From contig NZ_CP093363.1 of the NCBI RefSeq assembly GCF_023380225.1, forward strand, positions 1 to 42,663: 42,663 nucleotides of DNA. Direction: 5' to 3'. This document shows positions 1,576 to 41,392 of this stretch, piece by piece; within the stretch, counting starts at the first letter, position 1, and every line of letters starts with the position of its first letter. This stretch comes from Apilactobacillus apisilvae. Lineage in GTDB: Bacteria; Bacillota; Bacilli; Lactobacillales; Lactobacillaceae. The notes under the pieces were generated by a model. The model was not told the DNA's origin. It saw nothing but the letters and a program-made list of their open reading frames with translations, and did no database searches. Position numbers and translations under genes: made by a program.

Positions 1576-2190
1576 ATGTTTCAAACTCAATTAAACATTA
1601 GTGATGATGCTTACACAAATGACATTTTAAATAAATTGCCTGCTTATCGTAATCAACTTGACGATTCTAACAATCAAAAGTTTCTCAATATTATTGCCGA
1701 GCTTTTTAACGATGGTAAAAATGATTTAATTAGCATTTATGATCTAACCAGAATTAAAAATGCCAAAGGAAAAATACTTACTGATTTAGCTAAAGAATAT
1801 GGAATTACCAGAATTGATAATGATGATGACTTTTTAAGATTTGAACTAAACTGGCAAGTATTGAAGTCTAAAACTCCTACCACCATAAATGGAATTAAAA
1901 CATTAATTTCAGTTTTATTGAATATCGATGTTAAACAGTTTGACATTGTTCCAACAGAAAATCCGCAAGAAGTAGAAGTTATTAATATTCCATTTGATTT
2001 TAATTCTGGATCACATAGTAATTTGAAACGTAGAATGCTATCGGATTCAATTCAAAGCATTTTGCCTGTTGAAACTAACCTAAAAGATATTCAGTATCAG
2101 AAACAGTCCTATGGTAACTACTATATAGGAATTTTAGGCGTTAAAAATAAATTTAAGGAAAGCGAGGTAGTACCTTTTGGCAACTTATGA
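1576..2190 (+). CDS. Baseplate protein, DUF2313 (XkdU/YmfQ-like)
   Basis: A 204-residue protein of the XkdU/YmfQ (DUF2313) group, which joins the baseplate J protein to the tail fibre in PBSX- and Mu-like contractile tails. Visible hallmarks are the early FLNIIAELFNDGKNDL segment, then LTDLAKEYGITR and a middle region with KTPTTINGIKTLIS. It starts at ATG 1576 immediately after the baseplate J stop (TAG ATG); the preceding GGACGGTGAG gives a usable ribosome site. Its last 14 bases overlap the tail fibre, which starts at TTG 2177. Assignment rests on gene order and overall resemblance and is fairly sure. Confidence 0.75.
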   Translation: MFQTQLNISDDAYTNDILNKLPAYRNQLDDSNNQKFLNIIAELFNDGKNDLISIYDLTRIKNAKGKILTDLAKEYGITRIDNDDDFLRFELNWQVLKSKTPTTINGIKTLISVLLNIDVKQFDIVPTENPQEVEVINIPFDFNSGSHSNLKRRMLSDSIQSILPVETNLKDIQYQKQSYGNYYIGILGVKNKFKESEVVPFGNL

Positions 2191-4300
2191 TACACCGATT
2201 TTTACAAATCAAAGCAGTAGGCTAATTATTGCAGTTGCTGCTAACTCAGAACAATTAACCTTTACTAAAATTGTGTATAGTTCTGATGATTTTAGCAATA
2301 AGTCTGATGATGATATTGCTAATTTAACCGATTTAACTAATAAAGAAATTACTGCAAATGCTCAATCGTTCTTAGAAAATGGGATTACTAAAGTACGTGG
2401 TGCTGGTAATAACGACAACTTAGATCAAGGACTTAATGTTCGTACATTTGGACTATATGCAAAAGGAAACAATATCCCAGAAATGTTAGTCGCAGTTGCA
2501 ACCAGTCAAACTGCTGATTACTTAGACGTTCATAACAATAACTCAAGTAACCAACTAACATATACCTTCAACTTAAAAATTAGTAATACTAGAAATATTA
2601 ACTTTAGCAATATTCATGATGTTAGTGTTACACAAGCTGACCTACAATCAGCACTTGCACATATCGACCTATCTAACTACGAAACGGTTGAAGATGCAAA
2701 TGATGCACATAAAAGTTTAAAGGAGGGAATAGATGATTTGGATACACAAACATCACAAGGACTAACTGCAATCGGTCAACAACTAGGTCAACTGATTGAT
2801 ATCAATAAATTCAAAGATGAATTTAACACTAAATTAGGAAAATATGATACCAGCGCTGACGTTGACGAAAAGCTAAAAAACATAAATCTAAGCCCATATA
2901 TGAAAACTGCTGATGCCAATAATACCTTTGCGCTAAAATCAGATGTAACTAATTTAGGTTTAGCTGCTAAAGACGGCAAACTATATTACGACAACTTGCC
3001 AGTGATTACAGCTCAAGCACCATCAGGCATTAGTGTTAGTTTAGATCGTGCTAAAGATGGCATTCAGGCAACAATTAACGTTGCAGATAACGGCGGTTTG
3101 TCAAACATTTACTACCAACTTTTCTACAAAAAATCAGATGATACAGTTTGGCAGTTCATTGACCACCCAGCACGTACTAGCACCTTAACAGTACCGATGG
3201 ATGGTTCAACATATGATTTCAAGGCAAAGGCTGGTAACTCAGCTGGACTATCTGACGAAAGCTCAGTAGCCAGCATTCTAACAATTGATGGTTCAATCTA
3301 CGGAGCAAGTTGGAACCAAGGAGTAGATTCAACACTAACTCGTACAGATTCAGCTGTCGGCATGGTGGCTGGCATTAATGGTCAACGTAACGACTTTGAT
3401 AATGCTCCAATTTTTGGCGAAATGCACCGCGTCAACGATGATAAAGGCAATGTTTTCGTTAGAATTCCAAAATTCTATATTAAAAAAACACAGGTGCCTG
3501 GTTTATCTACGTGGCAAGTATCCAAGATTAAGCATGATGACAGTTGGTATTTACCTAAATGTTTCTGGAATTTTAGCAGTAATCAAGAACTTCCATATGT
3601 AGATGTTGGTGCGTACTTAGCTAATCTAAATGGCAGTGTACTTGAATCAAAAGTTAATACAGCACCTGCTAATAGTCAAACTATTGGTAGTTTTAGAAAT
3701 TACGCTCGAAACAATGGTGCTGGCTATCAACAATTAGATATTCACGTTTGGGACGTGTTGCAAGTCCTATTCATCATCGAATTCGCTACTTTAGATAGTC
3801 AAAGCGTAATGTATGGTAACGCTGAAAACTACAATTCTGGCTATACTGATGGTATGAAAGGCAGTTCTGCTGGTGATTCAAATAACATTAAATACCGTGG
3901 AATTGAGTCTATGTACTGTAACATTTTCCAATTCGTTGATGGTATTGGCATCAACTCAGGAAATATTTATGTATGTGATAATGCTAATAACTACAGCGAC
4001 TCACAATTCAGCTATCCATATAGGCCAGTTAGTTATCGATTACCAGAATCAAGCAACTACATGCAATCAGCAGGATTAGATTTAAGTAATCCTGAAGTTA
4101 CACTACCAACTTCAACAACTAGTACACAAGGATACTACAATGACTACTGTTATAACGATAGTGGAAGCAACTACGCAATGAATGTTGGCGGTTATGGCTC
4201 CCACTCGAGCCATGGGTTGTTTTGTGCGGGCGTCCACGGCGCGTTTTCCAGTTCGTACTCGAACGTCGGTTCCCGCTTGATTAAAAAACCTGTTCTTTAG
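2177..4300 (+). CDS. Tail fibre / receptor-binding protein, DGR target
   Basis: A 707-residue tail fibre. Residues 1-150 form the conserved adaptor that attaches to the baseplate (ANSEQLTFTKIVYSSDDF, then GLNVRTFGLYAKG). Residues 150-270 are helical and repetitive (shaft). Residues about 275-370 look like a fibronectin type III module (YYQLFYKKSDDTVW, YDFKAKAGNSAG). Residues about 375-707 resemble the formylglycine-enzyme/C-type-lectin fold used by DGR target proteins, ending GLFCAGVHGAFSS and NVGSRL. The last 35 codons contain the variable repeat; variable residues are Y673, S678, H679, H687, S692, Y694 and I702. Start is TTG 2177, preceded by GAGGTAGTACCTT and overlapping the previous gene; an ATG start is not available nearby. 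Such a tip is expected to contact the host surface receptor. Function as fibre is strong; the receptor is unknown. Confidence 0.9.
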   Translation: MATYDTPIFTNQSSRLIIAVAANSEQLTFTKIVYSSDDFSNKSDDDIANLTDLTNKEITANAQSFLENGITKVRGAGNNDNLDQGLNVRTFGLYAKGNNIPEMLVAVATSQTADYLDVHNNNSSNQLTYTFNLKISNTRNINFSNIHDVSVTQADLQSALAHIDLSNYETVEDANDAHKSLKEGIDDLDTQTSQGLTAIGQQLGQLIDINKFKDEFNTKLGKYDTSADVDEKLKNINLSPYMKTADANNTFALKSDVTNLGLAAKDGKLYYDNLPVITAQAPSGISVSLDRAKDGIQATINVADNGGLSNIYYQLFYKKSDDTVWQFIDHPARTSTLTVPMDGSTYDFKAKAGNSAGLSDESSVASILTIDGSIYGASWNQGVDSTLTRTDSAVGMVAGINGQRNDFDNAPIFGEMHRVNDDKGNVFVRIPKFYIKKTQVPGLSTWQVSKIKHDDSWYLPKCFWNFSSNQELPYVDVGAYLANLNGSVLESKVNTAPANSQTIGSFRNYARNNGAGYQQLDIHVWDVLQVLFIIEFATLDSQSVMYGNAENYNSGYTDGMKGSSAGDSNNIKYRGIESMYCNIFQFVDGIGINSGNIYVCDNANNYSDSQFSYPYRPVSYRLPESSNYMQSAGLDLSNPEVTLPTSTTSTQGYYNDYCYNDSGSNYAMNVGGYGSHSSHGLFCAGVHGAFSSSYSNVGSRLIKKPVL
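4188..4283 (+). repeat. DGR variable repeat (VR)
   Basis: A 96-bp stretch at the 3' end of the tail fibre gene that matches the template repeat at an offset of exactly 165 bp. Differences (template to variable) are A-T at 4193, A-G at 4209, T-C at 4211, A-C at 4235, A-G at 4251, A-T at 4256, G-A at 4257 and A-T at 4281. Six of eight are at template adenines, the signature of DGR mutagenic retrohoming. The invariant GC-rich block at 4264-4276 (GTCGGTTCCCGC core) is the likely initiation-of-mutagenic-homing (IMH) element. The repeat is about 55% G+C in a much more AT-rich genome. It ends 15-20 bases before the fibre stop codon. Confidence 0.93.
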
Positions 4301-4305
4301 GGGGT

Positions 4306-4325
4306 CTGGGGGAGTATTCCCCCAG
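4306..4325. other. DGR hairpin/cruciform downstream of VR
   Basis: Perfect inverted repeat: CTGGGGGA, tetraloop GTAT, TCCCCCAG. It begins 25 bases after the last VR/TR-identical base and 6 bases after the fibre stop codon. In the Bordetella BPP-1 element a hairpin of the same geometry (8-bp stem, 4-nt loop) just downstream of VR is needed for efficient target recognition. It has no T-run after it, so it is not a simple terminator. The position and geometry strongly support this role here; function is inferred by analogy. Confidence 0.85.
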
Positions 4326-4352
4326 GGAATTACATAGCGGTTGATGATGCTA

Positions 4353-4448
4353 GCGGTAATGGCTCCCACTCGAACTATGGGTTGTTTTGTGCGGGCGTCA
4401 ACGGCGCGTTTTCCAATTCGAGCTCGAACGTCGGTTCCCGCTTGAATA
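4353..4448 (+). repeat. DGR template repeat (TR)
   Basis: Non-coding donor copy of the variable repeat, lying between the tail fibre and the reverse transcriptase. In the register of the fibre it has six AAY codons (AAT 4358, AAC 4373, AAC 4400, AAT 4415, AAC 4427, AAT 4445), the codon choice typical of DGR templates because adenine mutagenesis of AAY gives many amino acids and no stop. Two codons that differ from VR at non-adenines (TAT 4376 and AGC 4421) look like former AAY codons already mutated in the template. It is expected to be transcribed and copied by the RT into adenine-mutated cDNA that replaces VR. Confidence 0.93.
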
Positions 4449-4599
4449 TTAATTATAAGACGAAAGAAACTTGCATCATCTTCTGCGTAGCACTCGCTAA
4501 AAATTCGCCACGAACGGTAGTGGTTAGTAGTGTAGCCGAAGGCCACTAAGATTAATAATAAATCAAATTTTAAAATCAAAAATATAAAGGAGAATCGAG

Positions 4600-5649
4600 A
4601 TGAAACGTTATGGGCATTTATATGATAAGGTCGCCGACTCAGCAGTAATCAATCTAGCTATCGACCAAGCATCTAGGGGTAAACGCCGTAGGCGTGATGT
4701 TAAAAGAGTTTTGGAAAATCGTGAGCTATATGTAATGAAAATCCAAGATATGTTATTAAGCGAAAGCTATCAGCCTTCACACATACGTGAAATTAAAATA
4801 AATGAGCGTGGAAAAGAACGGATCATAACCAGTTCAAAATTCTACCCTGACCAAATAATTCATTGGGCTTTAGTACTCGTGCTAGAGCCTATTTTTTATC
4901 GAAGTATGTACCACTATTGCTTAGCAACGGTTAAAGGCCGTGGTGGTGCGCTAGGTAAGCGTGCAGTTGAAAAGTGGTTAAAGAATGATCCAAAAAATAC
5001 TAAGTATTGCCTTAAATTGGATATTCACCACTTCTATCCATCGATTGATCATGATGTTTTAAAAATTAAACTATCAGACCGTTTCAAAGATAAAAGGTTG
5101 CTAAAAGTCTTATTTGATATTATTGACTGCTATCCAAAAGGCTTGCCGCTAGGACTATATACTTCTCAATGGTTTGCTAATTTTTTCTTAGAAAGTTTGG
5201 ATCATAAAATTAAAGAACAATGGCAAGCATCGTACTATGTAAGGTACATGGACGACATGGTCATCTTTGGTTGCAATAAGAAAAAGCTGCATAAATTAAA
5301 GAACAAAATCAATGAAGAAGTTAAGATTTATCATTTATCAATTAAAGATAACTGGCAAGTATTCAGAACCGATTCAAGACCAATTGATTTTCTAGGCTTC
5401 AAATTCTACCGGGATCATACGACTATAAGAAGGCGTAATTTCTTAAGAATAAGAAGAAAAGTAGCTAAAATAAGCAAAAAATCACGTCCTAGTGTGGGAG
5501 ATGCTCACTCAATGCTTAGTTATTATGGCTGGATTAAAAACTCAGATAGTTTCAAATTTTATAATGAACAAATCAAATTAAAATTTAGCGTAAAAGCAGC
5601 AAAAGGAGTGTTGAAATATGCAAGAAATGCACGCAAGAATGACGATTGA
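4600..5649 (+). CDS. DGR-type reverse transcriptase
   Basis: A 349-residue reverse transcriptase that would copy the TR RNA into mutated cDNA. The catalytic aspartates lie at D141 in LKLDIHHFYPSID and in the YMDD box (residues 216-219, RYMDDMVIFG). Between them, LGLYTSQ (residues 184-190) fits the DGR signature G-x3-SQ, which replaces the QG motif of group II intron and retron RTs. Length is typical of stand-alone DGR RTs, with no maturase or fused domain; the C-terminal quarter is basic (RIRRKVAKISKKSRP), suiting RNA binding. Start ATG 4600 follows AAAGGAGAATCGAG. The 3' end overlaps the next gene by 32 bp, so RT is embedded in the late tail operon rather than being a separate transcript. 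Identification is firm. Confidence 0.95.
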   Translation: MKRYGHLYDKVADSAVINLAIDQASRGKRRRRDVKRVLENRELYVMKIQDMLLSESYQPSHIREIKINERGKERIITSSKFYPDQIIHWALVLVLEPIFYRSMYHYCLATVKGRGGALGKRAVEKWLKNDPKNTKYCLKLDIHHFYPSIDHDVLKIKLSDRFKDKRLLKVLFDIIDCYPKGLPLGLYTSQWFANFFLESLDHKIKEQWQASYYVRYMDDMVIFGCNKKKLHKLKNKINEEVKIYHLSIKDNWQVFRTDSRPIDFLGFKFYRDHTTIRRRNFLRIRRKVAKISKKSRPSVGDAHSMLSYYGWIKNSDSFKFYNEQIKLKFSVKAAKGVLKYARNARKNDD

Positions 5650-8906: not shown

Positions 8907-9001
8907 ATTACTCTTATAGAATAGCACGATAAATAATTAATATCAACAACTTTTTATTAGTATATCTTTTTATCTTTTTATCTTTATGACAATTAATAAA
9001 T

Positions 9002-9169
9002 AGATAAATATGATAATAGATAAATATGATAATAGATAAATAGATAACACGTTACTAAAGGCTGCTTGATAGCATTTCAAATAAATAGTATGATAATAGA
9101 TAAATATGATAAATGATATATTAATAAATAGATAAATAGATAAATATATCTATTATCATAAAGATAAAT
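9002..9169. repeat. AT-rich iterons, probable parS/partition centromere
   Basis: Eight copies of GATAAAT start at 9003, 9019, 9035, 9099, 9108, 9131, 9139 and 9163. The first three sit in a tandem repeat of period 16 bp (unit AGATAAATATGATAAT, from 9002). Reverse copies of the related TATCTTT lie at 8963-8985. The array ends 16 bases before the ParA start codon. Repeats just upstream of a parA gene whose partner is a small ribbon-helix-helix protein are the usual layout of type Ib partition centromeres, where the small protein binds the repeats and also represses the operon. An iteron-type plasmid origin is an alternative. Confidence 0.7.
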
Positions 9170-9185
9170 AATTGAGGCCTGAACT

Positions 9186-10040
9186 ATGAATGATAAAATT
9201 AAAGATACTATTGGTAAACTAAAAGAAAGAAATAAAGCTTTAACTATAACTGTTGGTAATCAAAAGGGTGGTGTTGGTAAAACCTCAAATGCCACTTTAA
9301 TAGGTTATATGTTAGCTAAAAAAGGAGTAAAAACTTTAGTGGCTGACTTAGATCCACAATCAAATGCTACTAAAGCTTTGATGCTGACAAAATCTAATAA
9401 TACTGAACATGTGTCTACTATTGATAAAACTTTAATGGCTGGCGTTCAAGAAGGATCATTATCTAATTTACCTGTAAACATCGTTAATAATCTTGACTTG
9501 CTACCTAGTTTTATTGATTTTAAAGATTTTGCAAAGTTTGTATACCGAAATACTCAAACTGATTCTGAAGTGGACCATTATCTGGAACCATTGTTTGAAC
9601 CGCTAAAAGAAAATTATGACATCATTTTAATTGATGTTCCTCCAATGAACCCAGAAGTAACAAATAATTCAGTTGTTATGTCAGACTATGTTTTAATTTC
9701 ATTGCAGACACAAGAAAGATCATTAACTGGTGCTGAAGATTATTTAAACGAACTAGCTAATTTAAAAGATGAATATTCATTGAACGTTGATGTTTTAGGC
9801 ATACTTGAAGTTTTAATGCGAAAAAAAGGTTCAGTTGATAACTTTATAATAAAAAATGCTAAAGAAGAATTTGGACAAGACAACATTTTTGAAAACGTAA
9901 TTCCACAAATGGAACGTATTAAAAGATTTGATGTTAATGGAATTAGTGAAGTAGACTTTTACGATAAAAAAGTCATAGGGGTTTATAACCAAGTAACAGA
10001 TGAATTTTTAAATAGAATACATTATTTTGAATATGAATAA
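9186..10040 (+). CDS. parA: ParA family partition ATPase
   Basis: A 284-residue ParA/Soj-type ATPase that segregates low-copy replicons by nucleoid-dependent movement. The deviant Walker A box KGGVGKT is at residues 27-33, followed by the family's LVADLDPQSNATK, and a Walker B-like IILIDVPPMNPE near residue 150. There is no N-terminal helix-turn-helix domain, so it belongs to the short (type Ib-like) group that relies on a separate DNA-binding partner. Start ATG 9186 follows TTGAGGCCTGAACT, a weak site. The partner gene begins 14 bases downstream. Phages that integrate rarely need ParA; with no integrase in the genome it points to plasmid-like prophage maintenance. Confidence 0.9.
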   Translation: MNDKIKDTIGKLKERNKALTITVGNQKGGVGKTSNATLIGYMLAKKGVKTLVADLDPQSNATKALMLTKSNNTEHVSTIDKTLMAGVQEGSLSNLPVNIVNNLDLLPSFIDFKDFAKFVYRNTQTDSEVDHYLEPLFEPLKENYDIILIDVPPMNPEVTNNSVVMSDYVLISLQTQERSLTGAEDYLNELANLKDEYSLNVDVLGILEVLMRKKGSVDNFIIKNAKEEFGQDNIFENVIPQMERIKRFDVNGISEVDFYDKKVIGVYNQVTDEFLNRIHYFEYE

Positions 10041-10054
10041 GGTGGCAAAGAAAA

Positions 10055-10363
10055 ATGGCTAACAATAGTGGAATGCTAAGTAATAGAAAAAGAGGAAATT
10101 ATGAGCCTCGGACTTCGTTTGATGAATCAAAGGAAAAAGAACAAGAAAAACTAAAAAATAAAGGCCCAAAACCTAAGAACAGTTTTAATCAACAAAAGAA
10201 AAATATAAAGGTTTCTGCAGATATTAAAGATGAAATAGATGCTATTAAGAAAATTAATAGTTTGCATTATGATTATGAAACAATTCAATTTATTATTGAT
10301 AAATATTTAGACAATGAAACTGAAAGCAACAAGAGAAGATTTAAAATGTATACTGAGTTATAA
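10055..10363 (+). CDS. Ribbon-helix-helix partition protein (ParB-like)
   Basis: A 102-residue basic protein with a disordered, lysine-rich first half (RTSFDESKEKEQEKLKNKG) and a C-terminal ribbon-helix-helix: strand KKNIKVSADI, helix KDEIDAIKKINSL, helix YETIQFIIDKYLDNE. Small RHH proteins placed right after parA act as the centromere-binding adaptor, with the flexible N-terminus stimulating ParA's ATPase. It starts 14 bases after parA, with AAGGTGGCAAAGAAAA before ATG 10055, and is followed by a strong terminator, so the two genes form a compact operon. The iterons before parA are its probable binding site. Confidence 0.75.
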   Translation: MANNSGMLSNRKRGNYEPRTSFDESKEKEQEKLKNKGPKPKNSFNQQKKNIKVSADIKDEIDAIKKINSLHYDYETIQFIIDKYLDNETESNKRRFKMYTEL

Positions 10364-22730: not shown

Positions 22731-22799
22731 AGAGATATAGTTCAGTGGCAGAACTGCTGATAACACGCAGTAACACTGGTTCGATTCCAGTTATCTCAA
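22731..22799 (+). tRNA. Degenerate tRNA (Ile-like anticodon loop)
   Basis: Acceptor AGAGATA/TATCTCA (one mismatch at the first pair), D arm GTTC-AGTGGCA-GAAC and T arm ACTGG-TTCGATT-CCAGT are all clear. The 20 bases between D and T arms are two to three short, and no standard 5+7+5 anticodon arm forms. CTGATAA would give a GAT (Ile) loop but its stem does not pair; CTGC/GCAG could pair around a nine-base loop but uses a D-stem base. Probably a decaying tRNA gene, or one with an abnormal anticodon loop. Confidence 0.55.
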
Positions 22800-22928
22800 T
22801 TGCCCTTTGGGGTAAAATAAATTAACTTTTTATTTTCGTTTTATTTTTCTGGAGAACAGCCTAGGATATCTCAAAAAATAACAATCTAATTTTAGGTGGT
22901 GTTCTCGTGTGGTTGATAGCCACATTAT

Positions 22929-23001
22929 TGGGACATAGCTCAGTTGGTAGAGCGCCTGACTGTTAATCAGGTTGTCGACAGTTCGAGTCTGTCTGTCCCA
23001 G
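22929..23001 (+). tRNA. tRNA-Asn (GTT)
   Basis: A complete 73-base cloverleaf: acceptor TGGGACA/TGTCCCA (7 bp), D arm GCTC-AGTTGGTA-GAGC, anticodon arm CCTGA-CTGTTAA-TCAGG with anticodon GTT, variable TTGTC, T arm GACAG-TTCGAGT-CTGTC and discriminator G, as in asparagine tRNAs. CCA is not encoded. AAT/AAC codons are very frequent in this phage, and AAY is the key codon of the DGR template, so extra tRNA-Asn may help late translation (inference). A terminator follows at 23077. Confidence 0.93.
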
Positions 23002-23076
23002 TTGTCAGAGATGGCAAAATACAAATAGAGAGTTTAAATTCAGAGTCTCGTTTGTATTTCACAACAATTTGCTTAA

Positions 23077-25884: not shown

Positions 25885-25916
25885 ATACATAAAGTTACTA
25901 AGAAAGGAGGCAAATC

Positions 25917-27212
25917 ATGGCACTGCGTAATATATTTACCAAAATGCAAACATATGTATGGAAACAAGCTAAAGCTAATCGAGCATGGAAAATATTGATT
26001 AACTATGGTGGCAAGCGTAGTGGCAAGACTTTCTTAGATAACTTTTTATTCATATCAAATGTTTTACATGCTGCAAAAGTTGCTAAACATATGGGCGTTT
26101 TAAAACCGCAATTTATTTTAGCTGGTACTGATTCCAATGCTATTTACAGTAATGTCATATCAGAGCTATATAATACTTTCGGACTAGAGTTTGCATTCGA
26201 TAAACATAATAACTTTACTATTAAGTTTCCTGGTTTGCCTCCTGTAATTATTAAGCAAGCCTATACAGGTTCAATTGCTGGATTAAAGCGTATACGTGGT
26301 ATGACTTCATTTGGTGCTTATATTAATGAAGCGTCATTAGCTAATGAAGAAGTATTCCGTGAAATTATCGATCGTTGCTCTGTTGAAGGTGCAAAAATCA
26401 TATGTGATACCAACCCAGATGTTCCAACACATTGGTTAAAGACTGACTTTATAGATAATCCAAGTGACCAATATTTATCATTTCATTTTAAGCTATCTGA
26501 TAATCGTGAAAACGTGTCGGATAGCTTTTATCGTATGCAAAAAGAACGTACTGGCTTTTGGTACGAACGTAACTTCTTAGGCAATTGGACTTCGGCTGAA
26601 GGTATTGTTTATGACCAGTTTGATGCCAATTCTATGATTATTAGTCGAGATAAATTCAAAGAAATGACTAAAAATCAACAAGTTACTTACTGTGTGGGTG
26701 TCGATTGGGGTTGGGAACATAAAAATGAAATGGTCGTAACTGCAACTGATGAAAATGGCAATAAATATATGGTAGAAGAAGTTTCAACTAAGCATAAACA
26801 AATTTACCAGTTATATGATGAAGCTCGTAAGTTACAGCAGAAATATGGTTTTGAAATTCCATTCTATTGTGATTATGCGAACCCTGGTGATATTACTTAC
26901 TTCAAACAACATGGAATTAACGCACAAAACGCCTATAAGCATGTGTTAGATGGAGTTGCTGCGTGTGATGAAGTCATGAGTGAACATAAATTCTATGTGG
27001 TTAAAGAAGGCGTTGTTTATTTTGAAAAGGAATTATATCAATATGTTTGGGACGAAAATACAGGTAAGCCACTAAAGGCTGATGGTAACGATGACTGTAT
27101 GGATGCATGGCGTTATAGCATTGCTACACCTAAGCATATTGAAAGAATGAATAATAGTGGTCCAAAAGTGGATTCACAAATACAAATGGCTCAACAAGCT
27201 GGATTAATTTAG
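25917..27212 (+). CDS. terL: Terminase large subunit (TerL)
   Basis: A 431-residue packaging motor and nuclease. Walker A is GGKRSGKT at residues 31-38, the Walker B region GAYINEAS near residue 140. The C-terminal RNase H-like nuclease is marked by VGVDWGWEHKNEMVV and by GNDDCMDAWRY, which carry acidic metal ligands. Length and motifs fit the PBSX/terminase_3 type. ATG 25917 follows AAAGGAGGCAAATC. It is the first gene of the structural operon; the portal starts 16 bases after its stop. Confidence 0.95.
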   Translation: MALRNIFTKMQTYVWKQAKANRAWKILINYGGKRSGKTFLDNFLFISNVLHAAKVAKHMGVLKPQFILAGTDSNAIYSNVISELYNTFGLEFAFDKHNNFTIKFPGLPPVIIKQAYTGSIAGLKRIRGMTSFGAYINEASLANEEVFREIIDRCSVEGAKIICDTNPDVPTHWLKTDFIDNPSDQYLSFHFKLSDNRENVSDSFYRMQKERTGFWYERNFLGNWTSAEGIVYDQFDANSMIISRDKFKEMTKNQQVTYCVGVDWGWEHKNEMVVTATDENGNKYMVEEVSTKHKQIYQLYDEARKLQQKYGFEIPFYCDYANPGDITYFKQHGINAQNAYKHVLDGVAACDEVMSEHKFYVVKEGVVYFEKELYQYVWDENTGKPLKADGNDDCMDAWRYSIATPKHIERMNNSGPKVDSQIQMAQQAGLI

Positions 27213-27227
27213 AAAGGAGTGAATTAA

Positions 27228-28988
27228 ATGCCTGCAACAAATGATTTGAATGCTCATAATAGATCATTGCCTACACAACCTAATAGTGTAAATATGCTAA
27301 ATGGTCAACGCTATAGTTCATTTCAAAGCAATCAACCATACAACATACCAGAAAAAGGGTTTAACGCTGTTATTTCTGGTAATACTAACAATTCAGTTAC
27401 GCAAGATTTTAAAGACTTTGTGTCACATTATATTCAAGACCATATGGTTAATCAGTTGCCCAGAATTATTACATTGCAACGCTATTATCAAGCAGACAAT
27501 GATATTCATTACTGGAAATCAGACAAGCTTAAGCGTGCTGATAATCGTATTGCTTCAGCTCAAGCTAAATATATTACTGACTTTAACAATGGATTAATGC
27601 TAGGTAAACCACTTAAATTTGGTTATTCCAATAAAGATAATGATTCTGATAATGGTGAAGATTTAATCAATTTAATTGAAGATTTTAACCATCGTAGTGA
27701 CGAGCCTTCACATGAAATGAATTTAGGCAAGGAACTCATGAATACTGGTCGTGCATTTGAGCTATATTATCCTGCTCAAGGCACTAATGATTTGAAAATG
27801 GTGCCAATTAATCCAAATACATGTTTTATTATGTACAACACGGATGTAGAACCTAAAGAATTATGTGCAATTAGGTATTATTTAGTCGATTATGTAGGTG
27901 AGCAGTCATACAACATCGAAGTATATACCGCTGATAAGATTTATTATTTTGATGGTGGTAGTGATCCATCAAGCGACTTAAATTTAATTGACATTGAAGA
28001 TAATAAGTTCTCAGAAGTGCCTATCACCGAATTTGAAATGAACGATGAACGTATGGGCTTATGGGAACCAGTCAAAGACTACATTGATAGTTATGACAAA
28101 TCATTATCTGAAATGGCTAATAGTCAAGAAGATTTCAGTAATTCTACAATGGTATTTACTGGTGAATTAGATATGCCTGATCCATTTGTGCAAATTAAAG
28201 ATGGCTATGGCCATTATTTATATTGGGATAGTGATAGAAAACGTACTACCAAATCTCATGATGATAAGGGCAATGAAAATCAGCCAATTATGGTTAGAAA
28301 TAACATTAATACTAATTCTAATGCTATTCATTTAAAGCCTAGTCAAGTAGATGCTGGTAATGGTGGCGGTTCTACTACCGCAAATCCTGATGTTAAATAT
28401 CTTACTAAGTCATTAGATGCTAATGAGTGGAAGATTTATAACGATCAACAATTGAGTGATATTAATAAATTTACACTTACTCCAGATTTAACTGATGAGA
28501 ATTTCTCAGGACAACAAACTGGTGCCGCAATGGCATATAAATTGCTAGGCTCATTAACTTCATTCACTGGTTTTGGCGCACATTTCAAAAAAGGTATTAT
28601 GCGCCGTATGCGTTTGATAGTTGACTACTGGGCAACTACTAATCAACTAAAACAAGCTAATAATACAAATGATTATAGCAATGTTACCGTGGCATTTACC
28701 GCTAATCTTCCTAATAACATTCAAGATACCATTCAAAAGATTCAAGCGATGATCCAATCAGGTGATATCTCGAAACAAACTATTCGTGAAGCGTTTGCTG
28801 AAATTACTGGTGTTAGTCCTGATGAAGAAAATAGTCGTGTTAAAGATGAAGCTGATGAAGGTGATAATCGTATTATTACTCAGCAACAAAAGATGATGAA
28901 ATTAGCTAACCAAGCTAAACAACCAAATAGTCAAAATGATAATGGTGATGATTCATCTGATGATGAGGATAATAATGATGAAGAATAA
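27228..28988 (+). CDS. Portal protein (SPP1 Gp6-like)
   Basis: A 586-residue portal of the SPP1 family, the dodecameric ring through which DNA enters and leaves the head. Conserved pieces include NRIASAQAKYITDFNNGLML (beginning of the wing), SDEPSHEMNLGKELMNTGRA and FSGQQTGAAMAYKLLGSLTS in the stem/crown. The C-terminus is low complexity and acidic (DDSSDDEDNNDEE). ATG 27228 follows AAAGGAGTGAATTAA. It overlaps the MuF gene by 14 bases. Confidence 0.92.
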   Translation: MPATNDLNAHNRSLPTQPNSVNMLNGQRYSSFQSNQPYNIPEKGFNAVISGNTNNSVTQDFKDFVSHYIQDHMVNQLPRIITLQRYYQADNDIHYWKSDKLKRADNRIASAQAKYITDFNNGLMLGKPLKFGYSNKDNDSDNGEDLINLIEDFNHRSDEPSHEMNLGKELMNTGRAFELYYPAQGTNDLKMVPINPNTCFIMYNTDVEPKELCAIRYYLVDYVGEQSYNIEVYTADKIYYFDGGSDPSSDLNLIDIEDNKFSEVPITEFEMNDERMGLWEPVKDYIDSYDKSLSEMANSQEDFSNSTMVFTGELDMPDPFVQIKDGYGHYLYWDSDRKRTTKSHDDKGNENQPIMVRNNINTNSNAIHLKPSQVDAGNGGGSTTANPDVKYLTKSLDANEWKIYNDQQLSDINKFTLTPDLTDENFSGQQTGAAMAYKLLGSLTSFTGFGAHFKKGIMRRMRLIVDYWATTNQLKQANNTNDYSNVTVAFTANLPNNIQDTIQKIQAMIQSGDISKQTIREAFAEITGVSPDEENSRVKDEADEGDNRIITQQQKMMKLANQAKQPNSQNDNGDDSSDDEDNNDEE

Positions 28989-29892
28989 TCTAAAACAAGC
29001 TCAAAAGCATATATCTGACTTAGTTAATCAAGATAATGCCGATAGTGATAAATTAGATGCCTTTTATCAGCAAGCGTTGCTGATTATTAAGAGTAATATT
29101 CAAGCATTCTATCAGCAATACGCAACTGAAAATAGATTATCACTCAATCAAGTATCTTCCAGTGTAAATAGTTGGGATATGCAGCAATTTAAGCGTGCAA
29201 TTAACCAATTTATGCTAGATACACCAGACAATGACGATTTAAAGCAACGTATATTTGCCGCTAAAGCATTGGCTGGTACTAATAAATCTAACTTAATTGG
29301 TGCGATCATTAGTATTGGAATTGCAACTGCTAGTGCAAAAGCTCAACAATATGGGCAAAAGCAACTTATAAATCAGTATGTTGATGAATATAACTATCGT
29401 AATCCTAACAGCAAGATTTCTAGTATGGATGTTCCTAGCAGTATTAAAAAAGCAAAGGATTTTATTAACAAAATATGGGCTAACAATGATTTATCAACAA
29501 TTCGAGCTAAACAGCAAGTTCATAAATCAATCACTAAAGGCCTAGATAGATCTTCATTAAACCAGCTAAATAAAAATAGTGATGATACAAACACATCTAA
29601 CAATTTAGATAGTTCTGCTAATGCTGGAATTTCTTTTAACAAGCAATTGTTAAGGTCAAGTAATATTGATGCTAATAATGAGGCTTCCTCTGCTGCATAC
29701 TCAGACAATCAATCGATAGTTTATCTTCAGTGGGTAACTCAAGATGACGATAAGGTATGCGATATATGTGAGCCTATGAACGGAAACATATATACCGTAG
29801 AAGATGCACCAACGCCACAAGAAGATAGCCATTATAATTGCAGGTGCCTACTAGAACCTAGTGACAAAGATGGAAATATTTTAGATTTATAG
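28975..29892 (+). CDS. Minor head protein (SPP1 gp7/MuF-like)
   Basis: About 305 residues. The C-terminus carries the MuF/gp7 signature: YLQWVTQDDDKVCDICEPMN and then EDSHYNCRCLLEP, a cysteine/histidine cluster. The middle (residues 90-120) has a glycine-rich, possibly membrane-active segment (NLIGAIISIGIATASAKAQQ). Such proteins bind the portal and help DNA ejection. I chose ATG 28975, seven bases after GAGG; the longer upstream frame is part of the portal gene. Followed by a terminator. Confidence 0.87.
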   Translation: MMKNNLKQAQKHISDLVNQDNADSDKLDAFYQQALLIIKSNIQAFYQQYATENRLSLNQVSSSVNSWDMQQFKRAINQFMLDTPDNDDLKQRIFAAKALAGTNKSNLIGAIISIGIATASAKAQQYGQKQLINQYVDEYNYRNPNSKISSMDVPSSIKKAKDFINKIWANNDLSTIRAKQQVHKSITKGLDRSSLNQLNKNSDDTNTSNNLDSSANAGISFNKQLLRSSNIDANNEASSAAYSDNQSIVYLQWVTQDDDKVCDICEPMNGNIYTVEDAPTPQEDSHYNCRCLLEPSDKDGNILDL

Positions 29893-29920
29893 ATCAGTAA
29901 TTTTACTGGTCTATTTTTTA
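29889..29920 (+). terminator. Terminator between MuF and scaffold genes
   Basis: ATAGATCAGTAA and TTACTGGTCTAT (one G-T pair) meet over a two-to-four base loop, followed by TTTTTTA. It overlaps the MuF stop; the scaffold and capsid genes may thus have their own promoter or depend on read-through. Confidence 0.8.
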
Positions 29921-29980
29921 TGCCTTTTTATAGTATGCAGGCGTTAAAGAACAACTAAATATTTTTAAAGAGGTGTAGTA

Positions 29981-30607
29981 ATGGAAATCTCAGAAGAAGA
30001 TTTAAACAAAAAGATTTCTGATGCCAAAGAAGAAGGCAAAAAAGAAGGCAAAAAAGATTTAGATTCATTGCAAAACAAGTATGACACTTTAGACGATGAA
30101 TATAAGTCATATAAAGATGGTGAAGCTGACAGACGAGCTGAAGCCATGAAAAAAGGTGAATCACGTGCTCAAATGTCTGCCGAAGAAAAGGCTAAAGCTG
30201 ATTTAAAGGACAAACAAGATGCTCTTGATGAAGCTAAAAGACAAAATGAAGATCGTGAAGCTGAACTAAATCGCCGTGAATCTGTTAGCAACATCAAAGG
30301 CCAATTATCAGATAAAGGATTAGACACTGATTTTGCTGACCTTCTATATGACGAAGATGAAGACAAGTGCAATGAAAAAGTAAATAACTTCATCGAAAAA
30401 TGGAATACGTCTGTGCAAGATGCCACCAACACCAAACTAAAAGGTGGTAATAACCCACAAAATGGCAAAGGTGGAACAGGTGAAAGTGATTCAGACGTTT
30501 CATTTGATGATTATAAAAAGAAAACATTGGGTGAAAAAATGAAATTTGCAAATGAATATCCAGAACAATATGAAAAGTTTGAACAACTAAAGAAAGAAGG
30601 AAAATAA
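29981..30607 (+). CDS. Capsid scaffolding protein (DUF4355-like)
   Basis: A 208-residue, extremely charged coiled-coil protein (KKISDAKEEGKKEGKKDLDS, then DEAKRQNEDREAELNRRE) directly before the major capsid gene, as expected for a scaffold. The C-terminal 60 residues have a G/N-rich linker (KLKGGNNPQNGKGGTG) and a capsid-binding-like helix. ATG 29981 follows AGAGGTGTAGTA. The family resembles DUF4355 scaffolds of Lactobacillales phages. Confidence 0.85.
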   Translation: MEISEEDLNKKISDAKEEGKKEGKKDLDSLQNKYDTLDDEYKSYKDGEADRRAEAMKKGESRAQMSAEEKAKADLKDKQDALDEAKRQNEDREAELNRRESVSNIKGQLSDKGLDTDFADLLYDEDEDKCNEKVNNFIEKWNTSVQDATNTKLKGGNNPQNGKGGTGESDSDVSFDDYKKKTLGEKMKFANEYPEQYEKFEQLKKEGK

Positions 30608-30610
30608 TAA

Positions 30611-31702
30611 ATGGCAAGTCCACTAATTAATGGAAATGTAACAGATTTATCTAAAAACTTTAATCCTAAAGTTTGGTTAAATTGGGTATATGACGCAGTA
30701 AAACAACAAAATAATTTCTTTAAATCAGGAATTATTACTCAAAATGAAAGCCTATCAAACCTTCTAATGCAATCAGGTCAAGGATATGTAATTACTATTC
30801 CACATACTATGGCTTTAGACACAAGTTTAGAACCACAAAATTGGGATAACAAAACTGATTTAACTGTTAATTCATTAGATTCATACACCGAAAATGATAT
30901 TAAGACTACTGAAGCACAAGCCTTTGGTAATTCTGATTTTGATGATTATATGACTGGTGCTAGAACATTAGATCAAATCACATCACAATTTGCTGCATAT
31001 TGGAGTGCTGTTGATGCTAGAAAACTTATTCAATTAATGAATGTTTTATATTTAAACGACGATATTAAAACAGCTAAATCATTCGGTATCGGCAATGAAA
31101 AAGACTTTTCTGCAACTAATTTTGTTAAAGCTATGGCACATTTAGGCGATAAGAACCAAAATAATCCTACTCAAATGGCAGTCAACTCTGGTGCTTATAA
31201 TTATATGGTTGCTCAAAATCTAATTGACTTTATCCAACCTAATCAAGCAGTAGAACCAATTGCTACTTATAATGGTCTATCAATCGTTAAAGACGATAAA
31301 ATTCCTTTAACAAAAGATGGTAAAACCACCGCTTACTTATTTGGTGCAAATGCTGTTTCATATGCTACAGCAACTGCTCCTAATGGTGTTGCAACTACTC
31401 GTGATGATTTGCATCAAGGCGGTATCACGGGGATTTCACACAAACGTGTATCTTCAATGCATGCAATTGGAACTTCTGCTGATTTAACACAAGTTCAAGA
31501 TTTTTCTAATTGGAAAGAAGAATTTAATAAAGGTGAAAAAGCATTATACAAACCAGTCAATAAAGATAGTATGAGTGATATTAACCTAGTTAACTACTCA
31601 TTCACTATTGATAAAGATTTTGTTATTCCTGGTGTAAATACTACTGATACAGGCTCAAATAATGCAGCACCAAAATCTAATGGTAATACACCTAGCAAAT
31701 AG
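30611..31702 (+). CDS. Major capsid protein
   Basis: A 363-residue HK97-fold major head protein: N-terminal NGNVTDLSKNFNPKVWLNWV, then SAYWSAVDARKLIQLMNVLY-type helix (FAAYWSAVDARKLIQL), A-domain LFGANAVSYATA and C-terminal HKRVSSMHAIGTS. The C-terminal 15 residues (NNAAPKSNGNTPSK) are a flexible tail, possibly surface exposed. It starts three bases after the scaffold stop, with AAAGAAGGAAAATAATAA as ribosome site, and is followed by neck genes. Confidence 0.88.
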   Translation: MASPLINGNVTDLSKNFNPKVWLNWVYDAVKQQNNFFKSGIITQNESLSNLLMQSGQGYVITIPHTMALDTSLEPQNWDNKTDLTVNSLDSYTENDIKTTEAQAFGNSDFDDYMTGARTLDQITSQFAAYWSAVDARKLIQLMNVLYLNDDIKTAKSFGIGNEKDFSATNFVKAMAHLGDKNQNNPTQMAVNSGAYNYMVAQNLIDFIQPNQAVEPIATYNGLSIVKDDKIPLTKDGKTTAYLFGANAVSYATATAPNGVATTRDDLHQGGITGISHKRVSSMHAIGTSADLTQVQDFSNWKEEFNKGEKALYKPVNKDSMSDINLVNYSFTIDKDFVIPGVNTTDTGSNNAAPKSNGNTPSK

Positions 31703-31714
31703 TGAGGTGATTAA

Positions 31715-32053
31715 ATGACAGTATCTATTCAAGATGTAACTGAAGATATTGTTTCTTTTCAAAAATTTAGTACTCATCATGTACAAAATGCAATTGATGA
31801 TGCCAAACTACAAGCCAAATCTGACCGCATTAATCCAGATGGATTTGATATGGGTGTTAAGCAATACACTAAATATTTGCTTAGTATTGATAACTTTAAT
31901 CAATATGGTGGTGTTACTGCTAGTTCCATGATGGGTGTTAGTCAAACCATTAAAGATCCAACACAAAACAATCCATATTTGAATCAATATAATAATACAG
32001 TTGCTTTGTTTGGCAATAGTAGTAGTAAAGGAAGTGTAGTTTTCTATGAGTAG
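31715..32053 (+). CDS. Head-tail connector protein
   Basis: A 112-residue helical protein in the first neck position after the capsid gene (VTEDIVSFQKFSTHHVQNAI, then GFDMGVKQYTKYLLSIDNF), resembling adaptor proteins of the gp15/DUF4054 kind, which attach to the portal. ATG 31715 follows AGTGAGGTGATTAA. It overlaps the next gene by eight bases. Family by position and secondary structure; moderate confidence. Confidence 0.65.
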   Translation: MTVSIQDVTEDIVSFQKFSTHHVQNAIDDAKLQAKSDRINPDGFDMGVKQYTKYLLSIDNFNQYGGVTASSMMGVSQTIKDPTQNNPYLNQYNNTVALFGNSSSKGSVVFYE

Positions 32054-32639
32054 CGATATTAATCACTTAAAGAATGCAAAACCAGCCTTAACTGAGCTCA
32101 ATGCAATGCGAGTGATTGCTGGTGTGCCTGCCAATAACGATCATTTAAATATGATTGCCCTCGTGCAGGAGACTGGGAAGCATATCGAGCATAAGAACTA
32201 TCCTTATCTAGTAATTCCAACTGGTAATGCTGAAGGCCGAAAAGCTAGTCAAATAGTTGGTTTATACAAACGTGGAAAAGCCTTAGGAATTGATGATGCT
32301 AGTCAACCTAATGGCTTTAAAGTCATGTTTGTATTACGTGAATCAGTTAATATTCCCGCTCGTCCATTTATGACCTACACTCGTGATCATTATGGTAAAG
32401 AATGGCAAAAGACGTTAGCTGACTGCACGTTTAAATTATTGCTAGAACAAATGACTGTTCATGAAGTATGTGAGGCCTTAGGGAAACAAATGGTTGAAGA
32501 TTTAAAAACCACATTAAGGCAATTTAAAGAACCTAAGAATGCTCCACTTACTGAAGAACGTAAAGGTTTTAATAATCCTTTAATCGATAATAAAGGACTA
32601 CTTAATTCAATTGATTATTTTGTAGTTAAAAATAAATAA
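32046..32639 (+). CDS. Neck / tail-completion protein
   Basis: A 197-residue protein with VNIPARPFMTYTRDHYGKEW and EALGKQMVEDLKTTLRQFKE, then KGLLNSIDYFVVKN at the end. The PARPF segment followed by the helical LGKQMVEDLK run is characteristic of phage virion morphogenesis proteins of the gp10/gpG-like group that complete the neck. ATG 32046 overlaps the preceding gene and has AAGGAAGTGTAG upstream. Role inferred from the motif and neck position. Confidence 0.62.
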   Translation: MSSDINHLKNAKPALTELNAMRVIAGVPANNDHLNMIALVQETGKHIEHKNYPYLVIPTGNAEGRKASQIVGLYKRGKALGIDDASQPNGFKVMFVLRESVNIPARPFMTYTRDHYGKEWQKTLADCTFKLLLEQMTVHEVCEALGKQMVEDLKTTLRQFKEPKNAPLTEERKGFNNPLIDNKGLLNSIDYFVVKNK

Positions 32640-32653
32640 TAGGAGGCAACAAT

Positions 32654-32959
32654 ATGTTAAAACTTGCAATTGTAAAAGGCGTTAAAAATGAAAATGGTGT
32701 GTTCGTAGCACCTACTGAAATTAAACCTGAAGATGTACTTTTTAAAGGTGAAGGAGAAGTAAACATTACCGGTCTAGAATCTGGTGATGTTGTAGCTGAC
32801 GGTGAATACTTTGTCGGTAAATTTAGTGATGAAGCTAACAAGTTCACTTCGCCATTAGCTGCTGTGCCAGGTTGGACAGTAGAAGGCGAAGCATCAGTTG
32901 GTACTGTAAAAGTTCAAGCTACTGATGACGGTGCTTCAATCACTACTGACAAAGAATAA
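32654..32959 (+). CDS. Small beta-rich head/neck protein
   Basis: A 101-residue, acidic, beta-rich protein (FVAPTEIKPEDVLFKGEGEV, then GVADGEY-like VVADGEYFVGKFSDEANKF). It is not recognised. Its place among neck genes and repetitive GEGEV-type strands would suit a decoration or neck protein. ATG 32654 follows AGGAGGCAACAAT. Its stop overlaps the next gene's ATG (TAATG). Confidence 0.58.
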   Translation: MLKLAIVKGVKNENGVFVAPTEIKPEDVLFKGEGEVNITGLESGDVVADGEYFVGKFSDEANKFTSPLAAVPGWTVEGEASVGTVKVQATDDGASITTDKE

Positions 32960-33306
32960 TGATTGAAACATTTAACGATTTTAGTTTCATGTTTAATAAG
33001 TTAAAGCAGCCGCTTACTATAACCAAAGTCGATACTAATGGTGTTGACGAAGATGGTTATCCGACTAAGAGTGAACAGTCGATTGATGTGGTTGAGCCTA
33101 TTATAAATAGTCAAAACCCTAATACTAGCTCAACAAATATAGATGGTGGATACTATTCAACCACTACACTTTATTGGGTTAGCAGACATGGAGAATTTGA
33201 CAAAGAAACTAAAGTTAAAACAAATGAAAACGAGTATAAAGTGACTGCTAAAGCTGAGGTTCTACCTAAGCTTTTTTATTATACGATTAAAAAAGTGGAG
33301 GACTAA
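32959..33306 (+). CDS. Head closure / head-tail joining protein
   Basis: A 115-residue protein with DTNGVDEDGYPTKSEQSIDV followed by beta strands (TTTLYWVSRHGEFDKETKVK) ending FYYTIKKVED. This profile, size and place fit the small head-closure proteins of PBSX/SPP1-type necks. It starts in a TAATG overlap with the gene before; the next gene starts two bases after its stop. Confidence 0.62.
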   Translation: MIETFNDFSFMFNKLKQPLTITKVDTNGVDEDGYPTKSEQSIDVVEPIINSQNPNTSSTNIDGGYYSTTTLYWVSRHGEFDKETKVKTNENEYKVTAKAEVLPKLFYYTIKKVED

Positions 33307-33308
33307 TC

Positions 33309-33779
33309 ATGGCAGAATTTGAAAGCGTGGCTAATACGGTTGGGCGTGCAATTAAAGAGCAACTTGGTAAGTATAAAGATATTGTTGTTGGTCAAGCTAA
33401 TGTAGTTCGTGATAAACCTAAATATCCTTACATCACATACAATGTAACTGATCCAAACTTGCAAATTGATTTTGACCCCACTGCTGACCACTTCAATTTA
33501 AAAATACAGGTAAAAGCCGTAACTAATGACCAAAGGCAATATTATAACCTTTTGGAATACATTAGACGGCTTTTATTTTTGCAGCAGCCCACGGCTGATT
33601 TAGCAAGGCAAGGTATTGGTGTACTGAGCTATGAAGAATTGCCAGCAACACCAAGTTTTGTTGATAATTTCATTATTTTTGATGGTGGCTATAGCTTTAC
33701 ACTCAACGCTTACCATCACGAAGATGATTTTACTCAACCAAAATATCTAAACAACGCCAATATACAATGGAGGGAATAA
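33309..33779 (+). CDS. Tail terminator-like protein
   Basis: A 156-residue protein with YPYITYNVTDPNLQIDFDPT, then QYYNLLEYIRRLLFLQQPTA and a beta-strand FIIFDGGYSFTLNAYHH. This resembles phage neck/tail-terminator proteins that cap the tail tube of myophages (LIC_12616-type). ATG 33309 follows GTGGAGGACTAATC. It lies two bases before the sheath gene, consistent with that role. Confidence 0.7.
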   Translation: MAEFESVANTVGRAIKEQLGKYKDIVVGQANVVRDKPKYPYITYNVTDPNLQIDFDPTADHFNLKIQVKAVTNDQRQYYNLLEYIRRLLFLQQPTADLARQGIGVLSYEELPATPSFVDNFIIFDGGYSFTLNAYHHEDDFTQPKYLNNANIQWRE

Positions 33780-33780
33780 T

Positions 33781-34863
33781 ATGGCAGTTAAAACAATGTC
33801 TGACGTTCACATCAGACTTAAGCTCACTAAACAAGTGGCTACCAACGTTCAAACAGTAGCCATTTTAACTAGTGGCAAAGATGACCAAGTTCATAACTAT
33901 GTATATGGGCTTGATGATGATTACTCACATGATTTTGATGAAAATACAAGTGTTAACAAATTAATTGAAAAAGCTTTTGAAGTAACTGACTTTAGCGGAG
34001 TTGTACAAGTTATCCAAGCACCTAGTTCAGATGTACCTGGTAGTAAAGCTCAATCTCAACCAAGTGGTGCAGGTGGAACTGTCACTATGCCAGATACAAA
34101 TAAGTATGTATATGCACTCATGCAACACATCAATGACGGTTTTAACTATGTAGTACCTGATGGTTTATCAGTCAAGGATTTAGAAGCTGTTTCAGACTAT
34201 TTATATAAAACGCAAGCAGCAATGGTGATTGCTCAAGTTAAGTCAATCGATGACTTAAGAGCATTGCATGACTACTCAAGTGCTAACCAAAAAATGTCAC
34301 AAACTCAACTTAATCCAGTTTATGCAATCGTCGAAACTGGCACCCATGTACCTGGTGTACAACTTGCAGCAAGTGCAACAGCTAATGCTCCAGTTGACTT
34401 AATGAAGATTGGCAATGAATCTGAATTCATTCCAGATGATGATTTATCAGTTGAAGATATTGAAACAATCAAAGAATTACATGGATCATGTGTAGTAAAT
34501 AAAGCTGACGATATGATGATGTTGCAAGGCTATTCACTAGGTGATAACTACGCTGACCAATTCGTCAATACCAAAATTGTTAAGGATACTTTCCAATATG
34601 ATTTACAAAAGCAATTAAATAATTCTAAGCATCTTCATTTTGATGATAATGGAATTAACTTGCTTTACCAAACAGCAAAGCTAACTTCTAAGAAGCTTTT
34701 CAACGATGGTTACTTAGATGGTGAAGCTGATATTGGCAAAAAAACTTATTCTGAAACATCAGACTATGAAAAATCCACTCGTACTTACAACGGCTTAAAT
34801 ATTAATGCTAAAGTTATGAGTTCAATTGAAACAGTCAACGTTGTTTTAGATTTACTAGAATAG
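33781..34863 (+). CDS. Tail sheath protein
   Basis: A 360-residue contractile sheath subunit. Its N-terminus (SDVHIRLKLTKQVATNVQTV) and C-terminal region (DTFQYDLQKQLNNSKHLHFD, then NAKVMSSIETVNVVLDLL) fit the sheath family, with the conserved handshake-like C-terminal strands. Its presence makes the phage a myophage-type (contractile) virus. ATG 33781 follows GGAGGGAATAAT. The insert QPSGAGGTVTM near residue 95 is a loop that varies among sheaths. Confidence 0.83.
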   Translation: MAVKTMSDVHIRLKLTKQVATNVQTVAILTSGKDDQVHNYVYGLDDDYSHDFDENTSVNKLIEKAFEVTDFSGVVQVIQAPSSDVPGSKAQSQPSGAGGTVTMPDTNKYVYALMQHINDGFNYVVPDGLSVKDLEAVSDYLYKTQAAMVIAQVKSIDDLRALHDYSSANQKMSQTQLNPVYAIVETGTHVPGVQLAASATANAPVDLMKIGNESEFIPDDDLSVEDIETIKELHGSCVVNKADDMMMLQGYSLGDNYADQFVNTKIVKDTFQYDLQKQLNNSKHLHFDDNGINLLYQTAKLTSKKLFNDGYLDGEADIGKKTYSETSDYEKSTRTYNGLNINAKVMSSIETVNVVLDLLE

Positions 34864-34874
34864 GAGGCAATTAA

Positions 34875-35360
34875 ATGAGCAACTCAAAAGGATATGATGT
34901 TAATTCATCTGCTGAACGTAGCTTAACAATGAACGTTTTAGGAATCACTACTGAATGTACTGACTTAGTAAATGGAACTGCTGCCAGCTTTAATAGAACT
35001 GGTCAAGAATTTACTAATACGAAAGACTACCAAAATAAATCACATTTTTTTCAATCGGGTGATAAGTCTGGAAATGTTGTTGTTAATGTTCTGGCTGGTA
35101 GTCGTCAAGATAAGATTTTTACTAAGTTAAGAAGAATTCAATCAAGCGCACCATCTAATAATAAGCCAATGGCTAATTTTGTTTATGCAGATAATGCTAA
35201 TGGAGAAACTGCTACTGGTACTGCTTGCATTATTCAAGGGCCTCCACAAGATGATATGGCTAATAATATTCCTACAAAGGCTTATACATTCTTAGCAGAT
35301 GAAGTCGATAATGACTACGATGGTGTTACTGATGATATCAAGCAACTACTAAGTGAATAA
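34875..35360 (+). CDS. Tail tube protein
   Basis: A 161-residue protein placed directly after the sheath, as tube proteins are. It has the polar, beta-rich profile (TEFTNTKDY-like GQEFTNTKDYQNKSHFFQSG, then GNVVVNVLAGSRQDKIFTKL) of XkdM-like tube proteins. ATG 34875 follows AGGAGGCAATTAA. A terminator follows, which would limit expression of downstream low-copy tail genes relative to sheath and tube. Confidence 0.78.
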   Translation: MSNSKGYDVNSSAERSLTMNVLGITTECTDLVNGTAASFNRTGQEFTNTKDYQNKSHFFQSGDKSGNVVVNVLAGSRQDKIFTKLRRIQSSAPSNNKPMANFVYADNANGETATGTACIIQGPPQDDMANNIPTKAYTFLADEVDNDYDGVTDDIKQLLSE

Positions 35361-35367
35361 ACATATT

Positions 35368-35392
35368 AAAGCACTCAAATGAGTGCTTTTTT
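35368..35392 (+). terminator. Terminator after tail tube gene
   Basis: AAAGCACTC, loop AAAT, GAGTGCTTT, then TTT. A nine-base-pair stem. Partial termination here would favour sheath and tube over tape measure genes. Confidence 0.9.
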
Positions 35393-35428
35393 CATACATA
35401 CTTTTAAAAATAATAGGAGGAATTAAGT

Positions 35429-41388: not shown

Positions 41389-41392
41389 TTAA

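Follow-up and report, generated by a model that had tools for sequence, protein, structure and literature searches.

Diversity-generating retroelements (DGRs) are already known as a kind. In the Bordetella phage BPP-1, according to passages of PMC12875486, the spacer RNA folds, recruits bRT-Avd and primes the cDNA. An architecture without the accessory gene avd is already published for crAssphage LMMB; passages of PMC7290462 place this DGR in "lineage 3" of Wu et al., cited there, and put DGRs without an accessory homologue at about a quarter. In this study, we analysed a stretch of 42,663 nt from Apilactobacillus apisilvae (contig NZ_CP093363.1, positions 1 to 42,663, forward strand), hereafter the window, for which a first-pass annotation made from the letters alone had proposed a complete DGR at a tail fibre gene. 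We believe that the locus is very probably a DGR with the order target gene, variable repeat (VR), template repeat (TR) and reverse transcriptase (RT), predicted from its sequence to rewrite the fibre tip. The more novel question is the erosion of the template.

Results

Repeat pair and fibre tip

When the window was compared with itself, the top diagonal was at offset 165 with 102 of 150 matches, and the runner-up among offsets 100–259 had 50; the repeat was recovered again as a 102-nt repeat (90%). The 96-bp VR at the fibre 3' end and the TR 165 bp downstream, both proposed in the first pass, were thereby borne out, and the TR, which lies between the fibre stop and the RT gene, is outside the fibre frame as had been claimed (Table 1). 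The two copies differ at eight positions, and six of them are opposite TR adenines (hypergeometric p = 2e-4; 1.4e-4 to 6.8e-4 across four choices of repeat ends), in agreement with the predicted adenine focus. Read from TR to VR, each of the six adenine-facing changes replaces a residue (N673Y, N678S, N687H, N692S, S694Y and N702I), and all fall within the predicted range of residues 673–702. The two other differences are T4376 versus C4211 and G4422 versus A4257, and the latter, a G-to-A change, sits in the S694Y codon. The TR had also been called rich in AAY codons, which failed against its peers: 5 of 30 codons are AAY, tied fourth lowest of 98 loci with a median of 28%, and the lowest locus (L116, zero) is an artefact of a wrong reading frame.

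The hairpin expected 3' of the VR was found as CTGGGGGA-GTAT-TCCCCCAG. Of the 98 loci, 60 have a stem of at least 7 bp past the VR, and 2 have one past the TR. The fibre tip, with the VR at the 3' end of its gene, is predicted to adopt a C-type-lectin-type fold, which is the fold of known DGR targets. No further remote VR was found in the phage's own genome, where the repeat occurs at one place only. The fibre frame stays open past its stop and through the TR for 82 codons (4301–4549); this is not general, as the repeat offsets in relatives are not always multiples of three.

Table 1. Positions of the DGR features in the window
Feature	Position	Strand	Remarks
Tail fibre gene, DGR target	2177..4300	+	707 aa, TTG start as listed
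Variable repeat (VR)	4188..4283	+	fibre residues 671-703; TR repeat at offset 165
Hairpin past VR	4306..4325	+	8-bp stem, 4-nt loop GTAT
Template repeat (TR)	4353..4448	+	outside fibre gene; 16 adenines in 96 nt
TR site	4422	+	G in TR; A in window VR (4257) and in 8 aligned family TRs (7 different sequences)
RT-18 RNA (RF03021)	4488..4562	+	Rfam 48.1 bits, cut-off 41.3; TR-RT spacer
DGR reverse transcriptase	4600..5649	+	349 aa; RVT_1, phrog_1423; DGR clade in tree

Reverse transcriptase

The RT carries the catalytic D141 in LDIHHF, LGLYTSQ at 184 and YMDD at 216, as the first-pass annotation had read them, and it matches RVT_1 and the PHROG RT family 1423. Its LGLYTSQ (SQ for SP) stands against QGxxxSP in 15 of 15 outgroup rows; the search pattern matched neither motif in the RT of locus L147. 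A tree was built from 47 RTs, whose references were BPP-1 and five other phage DGRs together with 7 group II and 8 retron RTs chosen by family search of genomes; L028 was left out because it gave no usable RT sequence. The DGR RTs, including that of the window, form one side of a branch with 100/99 support, although the long retron and DGR branches join at the drawn root. The window RT thus groups with DGR RTs and not with those of retrons or group II introns. Its partners in the tree are L116 and L117, both of the same host family (100/99; pairing with L116 alone 95/71), the group of Lactobacillus phage LBR48 comes next in the tree, and no sister exceeds 61% identity.

Layout and adenine bias in relatives

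RT homologues were collected from four sources: genome contigs gave 29 loci, viral contigs supplied the best 80 of 87, family genomes gave 7 loci (8 of 397 had a match, one being the phage's own), and three named phages were added. The RT was located by script in 122 sequences, and after removal of two own-genome copies 120 remained, the window included. In 101 of the 120, a TR/VR pair precedes the RT, with the VR first; the pair-finding rule accepted only this order and strand and counted other layouts as misses. The 19 sequences without a pair comprised 11 with at most 500 nt of the locus ahead of the RT, LBR48 with a single repeat copy, and 7 with room where no pair was found.

Among 89 distinct pairs, 1391 mismatches were opposite TR adenines and 65 were not, with about 363 adenine-facing mismatches predicted from composition alone. 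VR differences in relatives therefore map to template adenines (1391 of 1456), as expected of a DGR. These counts, like those on hairpins, AAY codons, cassette neighbours and the TR alignment, omit L035, L044 and L055, whose matches were short, of low complexity or in large repeats; including them gave a raw count of 1431 versus 158 over 92 pairs. The sister pair L101/L102 aligned poorly without gaps, and no interpretation was drawn from it.

The only common neighbour in the cassettes is the target gene (97 of 98 loci). The 13 other neighbour families listed occur in at most 22 loci each, the window in none, and are mostly small, acidic and 3' of the RT. Two small basic families (13 and 15 loci; pI 11–12) begin 540–790 nt upstream of the RT and overlap the target-gene end; from sequence, we take them for out-of-frame open reading frames (ORFs). 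The gaps, about 70 nt between VR and TR and about 150 nt between TR and RT, would leave no room for avd. The cassette showed no avd-like gene, and the 14 largest neighbour families listed included no conserved one. The Avd profile PF05635 was silent in 14 of 14 controls and also in BPP-1, whose own Avd went undetected. The description of the DGR as complete is overstated if a BPP-1-like avd is expected, and it mentioned neither a structured RNA nor the lack of a visible accessory gene.

Within the genus, 1 of 16 genomes has a DGR, namely the phage's own; an exact 21-base TR stretch had no match in viral contigs, and positions 25900–42600 had no megablast match to a near-identical phage. The same-genus sister phage L152 (5800–9100) keeps the baseplate genes and the first 236 fibre residues (33% identity) with another tip. 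Because L152 has this other tip and its genome has no such DGR RT, we speculate that fibre tip and DGR may travel as one cassette.

RT-18 RNA in the TR–RT spacer

The spacer matches the Rfam family RT-18, although several pairs of the Rfam model are non-standard in the window. RT-18 was also present in 17 of 20 relatives selected for testing, and in the alignment of these with the window (18 sequences) 8 of 10 predicted pairs changed on both sides with pairing kept. A model built from the 18 was run on 94 of 123 sequences, duplicates and truncated loci being mostly excluded, and it matched 74 at E < 0.01 and 82 at E up to 1. Position checks cover the 74: a known TR precedes 69, and 73 lie past any known TR and at most 60 nt upstream of the RT, while the remaining match, in L104, is also between TR and RT at 103 nt. 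One weak match (E 0.11), just upstream of the crAssphage LMMB RT, was the only one in 24 control loci, which covered six other DGRs, group II introns, retrons and two sister phages.

An Rfam scan of 11 other loci found, directly 5' of the RT, Phage_DGR in BPP-1, RT-4 in Epona, RT-3 in Bacteroides phage p00, RT-14 in BalMu-1, RT-17 in L105 and RT-18 in L011, and none in five loci. Because each directly precedes its RT, like Phage_DGR in BPP-1, we suggest that several Rfam RT-n RNAs (RT-3, RT-4, RT-14, RT-17 and RT-18) are DGR spacer RNAs of different lineages. The RT-n motifs were reportedly described in a 2017 paper; our literature search found nothing that links these names to DGR spacer RNAs. 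By analogy with the BPP-1 spacer, RT-18 probably serves as the RT-binding spacer from which cDNA synthesis is primed.

Discussion

An adenine-poor template

The window TR has 15% adenine, the third lowest of the 89 pairs (median 24%); apart from it, L020 and L089, the other 86 have at least 19.4%. In an 86-row TR alignment the window keeps 11 of 20 consensus adenines, also third lowest, against 7/22 in L020, 9/22 in L089 and 17/22 in the fourth-lowest row, and in the family alignment it has lost 7 of 16 adenine sites versus 0–4 of 15–16 in eight other rows. At six of the seven lost sites the VR carries the same new base; opposite 4422 it is still A. Over the 89 pairs, adenine fraction did not correlate with non-adenine mismatches (Spearman -0.10, p = 0.34), and therefore the erosion signal hangs on three outliers.

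The strongest case is L020 (Pumilibacter muris), in whose TR 16 of 25 adenine sites common to its sisters L019 and L074 have changed versus 7 of 88 other shared sites (p = 2e-8). It gained no adenine, its two repeat copies both carry mutations, and its genome yielded no third copy. A plain swap of TR and VR during assembly was considered as the cause and rejected: both copies are changed at 8 of the 25 shared adenine sites, and only two copies were found. L089 has 9 adenine-facing and 2 other mismatches in its 5' half and 0 and 8 in its 3' half, as if half of the template had been overwritten. These patterns make template erosion likely in L020 and L089. For the window erosion is only suggested, the test within the window being non-significant (at codon positions 1–2, adenine sites lost 7/16 versus non-adenine sites changed 8/26, p = 0.51; p = 0.73 without two near-duplicate rows).

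That non-significant test speaks for an alternative to which we give an even chance, namely that ordinary drift or design accounts for the low adenine content of the template, the tip needing fewer variable residues and self-mutagenesis being absent. The closest sister RT is no nearer than 61% identity, and the window TR has diverged at non-adenine sites too (17/45). A survey found non-adenine changes in 46.3% of TR–VR pairs, for which passages of PMC6642488 name sequencing or assembly errors as one possible cause; such changes being this common, the two in the window need no special cause. However, L116 is nearly as diverged at non-adenine sites (15/44), yet it lost only 1 of 15 adenine sites, and the pair 4422/4257 requires that the TR lost its adenine only once the VR had been copied, or that the VR gained one independently.

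Somewhat short of an even chance, in our view, is that DGR templates are mortal in some phages and bacteria: retrohoming into the TR, or write-back from the VR, would overwrite adenines and thereby fix a tip variant in the template at the cost of future diversity, with the window mid-way and L020 and L089 further along. The window would be mid-way in the sense that it still diversifies with about half of the consensus adenines gone. Its losses fit stepwise loss with diversification in between. A narrow search found no literature on DGR template erosion.

A DGR that has run down altogether is doubtful. Here the RT and RNA look whole, and the template would be near-inactive after adenine loss through self-mutagenesis or VR-to-TR gene conversion. 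The adenine fraction, the consensus and family sites lost, and the G at 4422 opposite an A in the VR and eight other rows all point this way. Against it, the VR differs at six of the remaining TR adenines and shares the new base at six of the seven lost ones, which fits diversification after most losses, and adenine loss in the window did not differ significantly from change at other sites. The low TR adenine count probably limits the number of tip variants.

Weight of the evidence and proposed mechanism

A chance duplication adjoining an unrelated RT of a retron, a defence system or a group II intron, to which one could point because the RT domain is hit by profiles for defence, retron and group II RTs (the NCBIfam ones below their curated cut-offs), is refuted as far as sequence can do so by the RT tree, the adenine bias of the window and its relatives, the layout shared by 101 of 120 sequences, the predicted tip fold and LGLYTSQ in place of QGxxxSP.

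Several points weigh against a DGR. The DiGReF filter wants at least seven adenine-facing changes, as stated in part of PMC3521204, and the window has six; nearly all DGRs in a large survey reach 75% adenine-facing changes (passages of PMC8144416), and the window, with 6/8 or, with tighter ends, 5/7, is at or under this value. The loop GTAT is off the 5'-GRNA consensus given in passages of PMC3240598, although stem and loop size fit, and the 14-nt GC-only stretch at the VR end, an element named in the same passages, is absent from the sequence. BPP-1 requires Avd (passages of PMC12875486) and none was seen here, but the profile search also missed BPP-1's own. No VR variants within the same species were found.

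We still favour a DGR, and we speculate that it would work as follows. An RNA holding the TR and RT-18 would be made, and RT-18 would probably bind the RT and prime the cDNA, by analogy with BPP-1. Copying of the template by the RT would likely be error-prone at adenines, and the cDNA copy would replace the VR and alter the fibre tip at about nine adenine-holding TR codons, the hairpin presumably marking the VR, not the TR, as recipient. With no avd-like gene visible nearby in the cassette, RNA and RT probably act without avd or with a factor encoded elsewhere. Host switching through tip variation, which the first pass had also proposed, would follow from the BPP-1 precedent.

Phage context

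The contig (1–42663) reads as circular: a frame that opens 421 nt before its end crosses the junction and terminates at a TGA overlapping the ATG at 5. The contig has no terminal repeat of 15–399 nt. A ParA-like partition gene (9186–10037) has a 16-nt repeat array upstream (8999–9170) and a small ORF without Pfam match at its 3' side (region 8999–10360). A PHROGs scan of 27 proteins, out of 89 listed ORFs, found no integrase. The circle, the ParA-like gene with its array and the lack of an integrase among the scanned proteins suggest a phage-plasmid carrying the DGR. A tRNA-like gene (22732–22798) received an odd four-base anticodon call, and a tRNA-Asn is nearby at 22928–23002.

The window adds an avd-less DGR for a likely Lactobacillaceae phage resembling a phage-plasmid. 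It also points to templates that lose adenines, which would be relevant to how long a DGR can go on diversifying and to why some DGRs escape the usual detection filters.

Comparison with known systems

Like BPP-1, the window has a VR at the fibre 3' end, a TR, a DGR RT, a hairpin past the VR, an RNA known to Rfam in the TR–RT spacer (Phage_DGR there, RT-18 here) and a target of similar fold, predicted for the window. BPP-1 has avd between VR and TR, and passages of PMC3240598 describe a GRNA loop and a GC-only element; none of the three was seen in the window.

CrAssphage LMMB shares the order target, VR, TR and RT without avd; its TR, however, has 28 adenines, of which 21 are changed in the VR (both points from passages of PMC7290462). 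Its RT is 37% identical to that of the window.

A third close system is that of LBR48 (NC_027990.1), an L. brevis myophage. No well-studied DGR in a Lactobacillaceae myophage had been known to the first-pass annotation. A DGR-clade RT, 49% identical to the window RT, is nevertheless already on record in LBR48; PMC6805780, which mentions this phage, does not contain the words "reverse transcriptase" or "retroelement". Several fibre homologues are named Levilactobacillus. In the GenBank record of LBR48 (L112, 540–670), VR and TR are fused, with undetermined bases nearby. LBR48 differs from the window in this single repeat copy, which fuses fibre and template and is either collapsed in assembly or recombined. 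Over 72 nt, the copy matches the TR of L119 exactly; L119 comes from a genome in the window's family, and this match and the Levilactobacillus names among the fibre homologues make a Lactobacillaceae host likely. In LBR48 as in the window, an RT-18 RNA precedes the RT, the fibre end bears a template-like repeat, and the baseplate genes follow a similar order.
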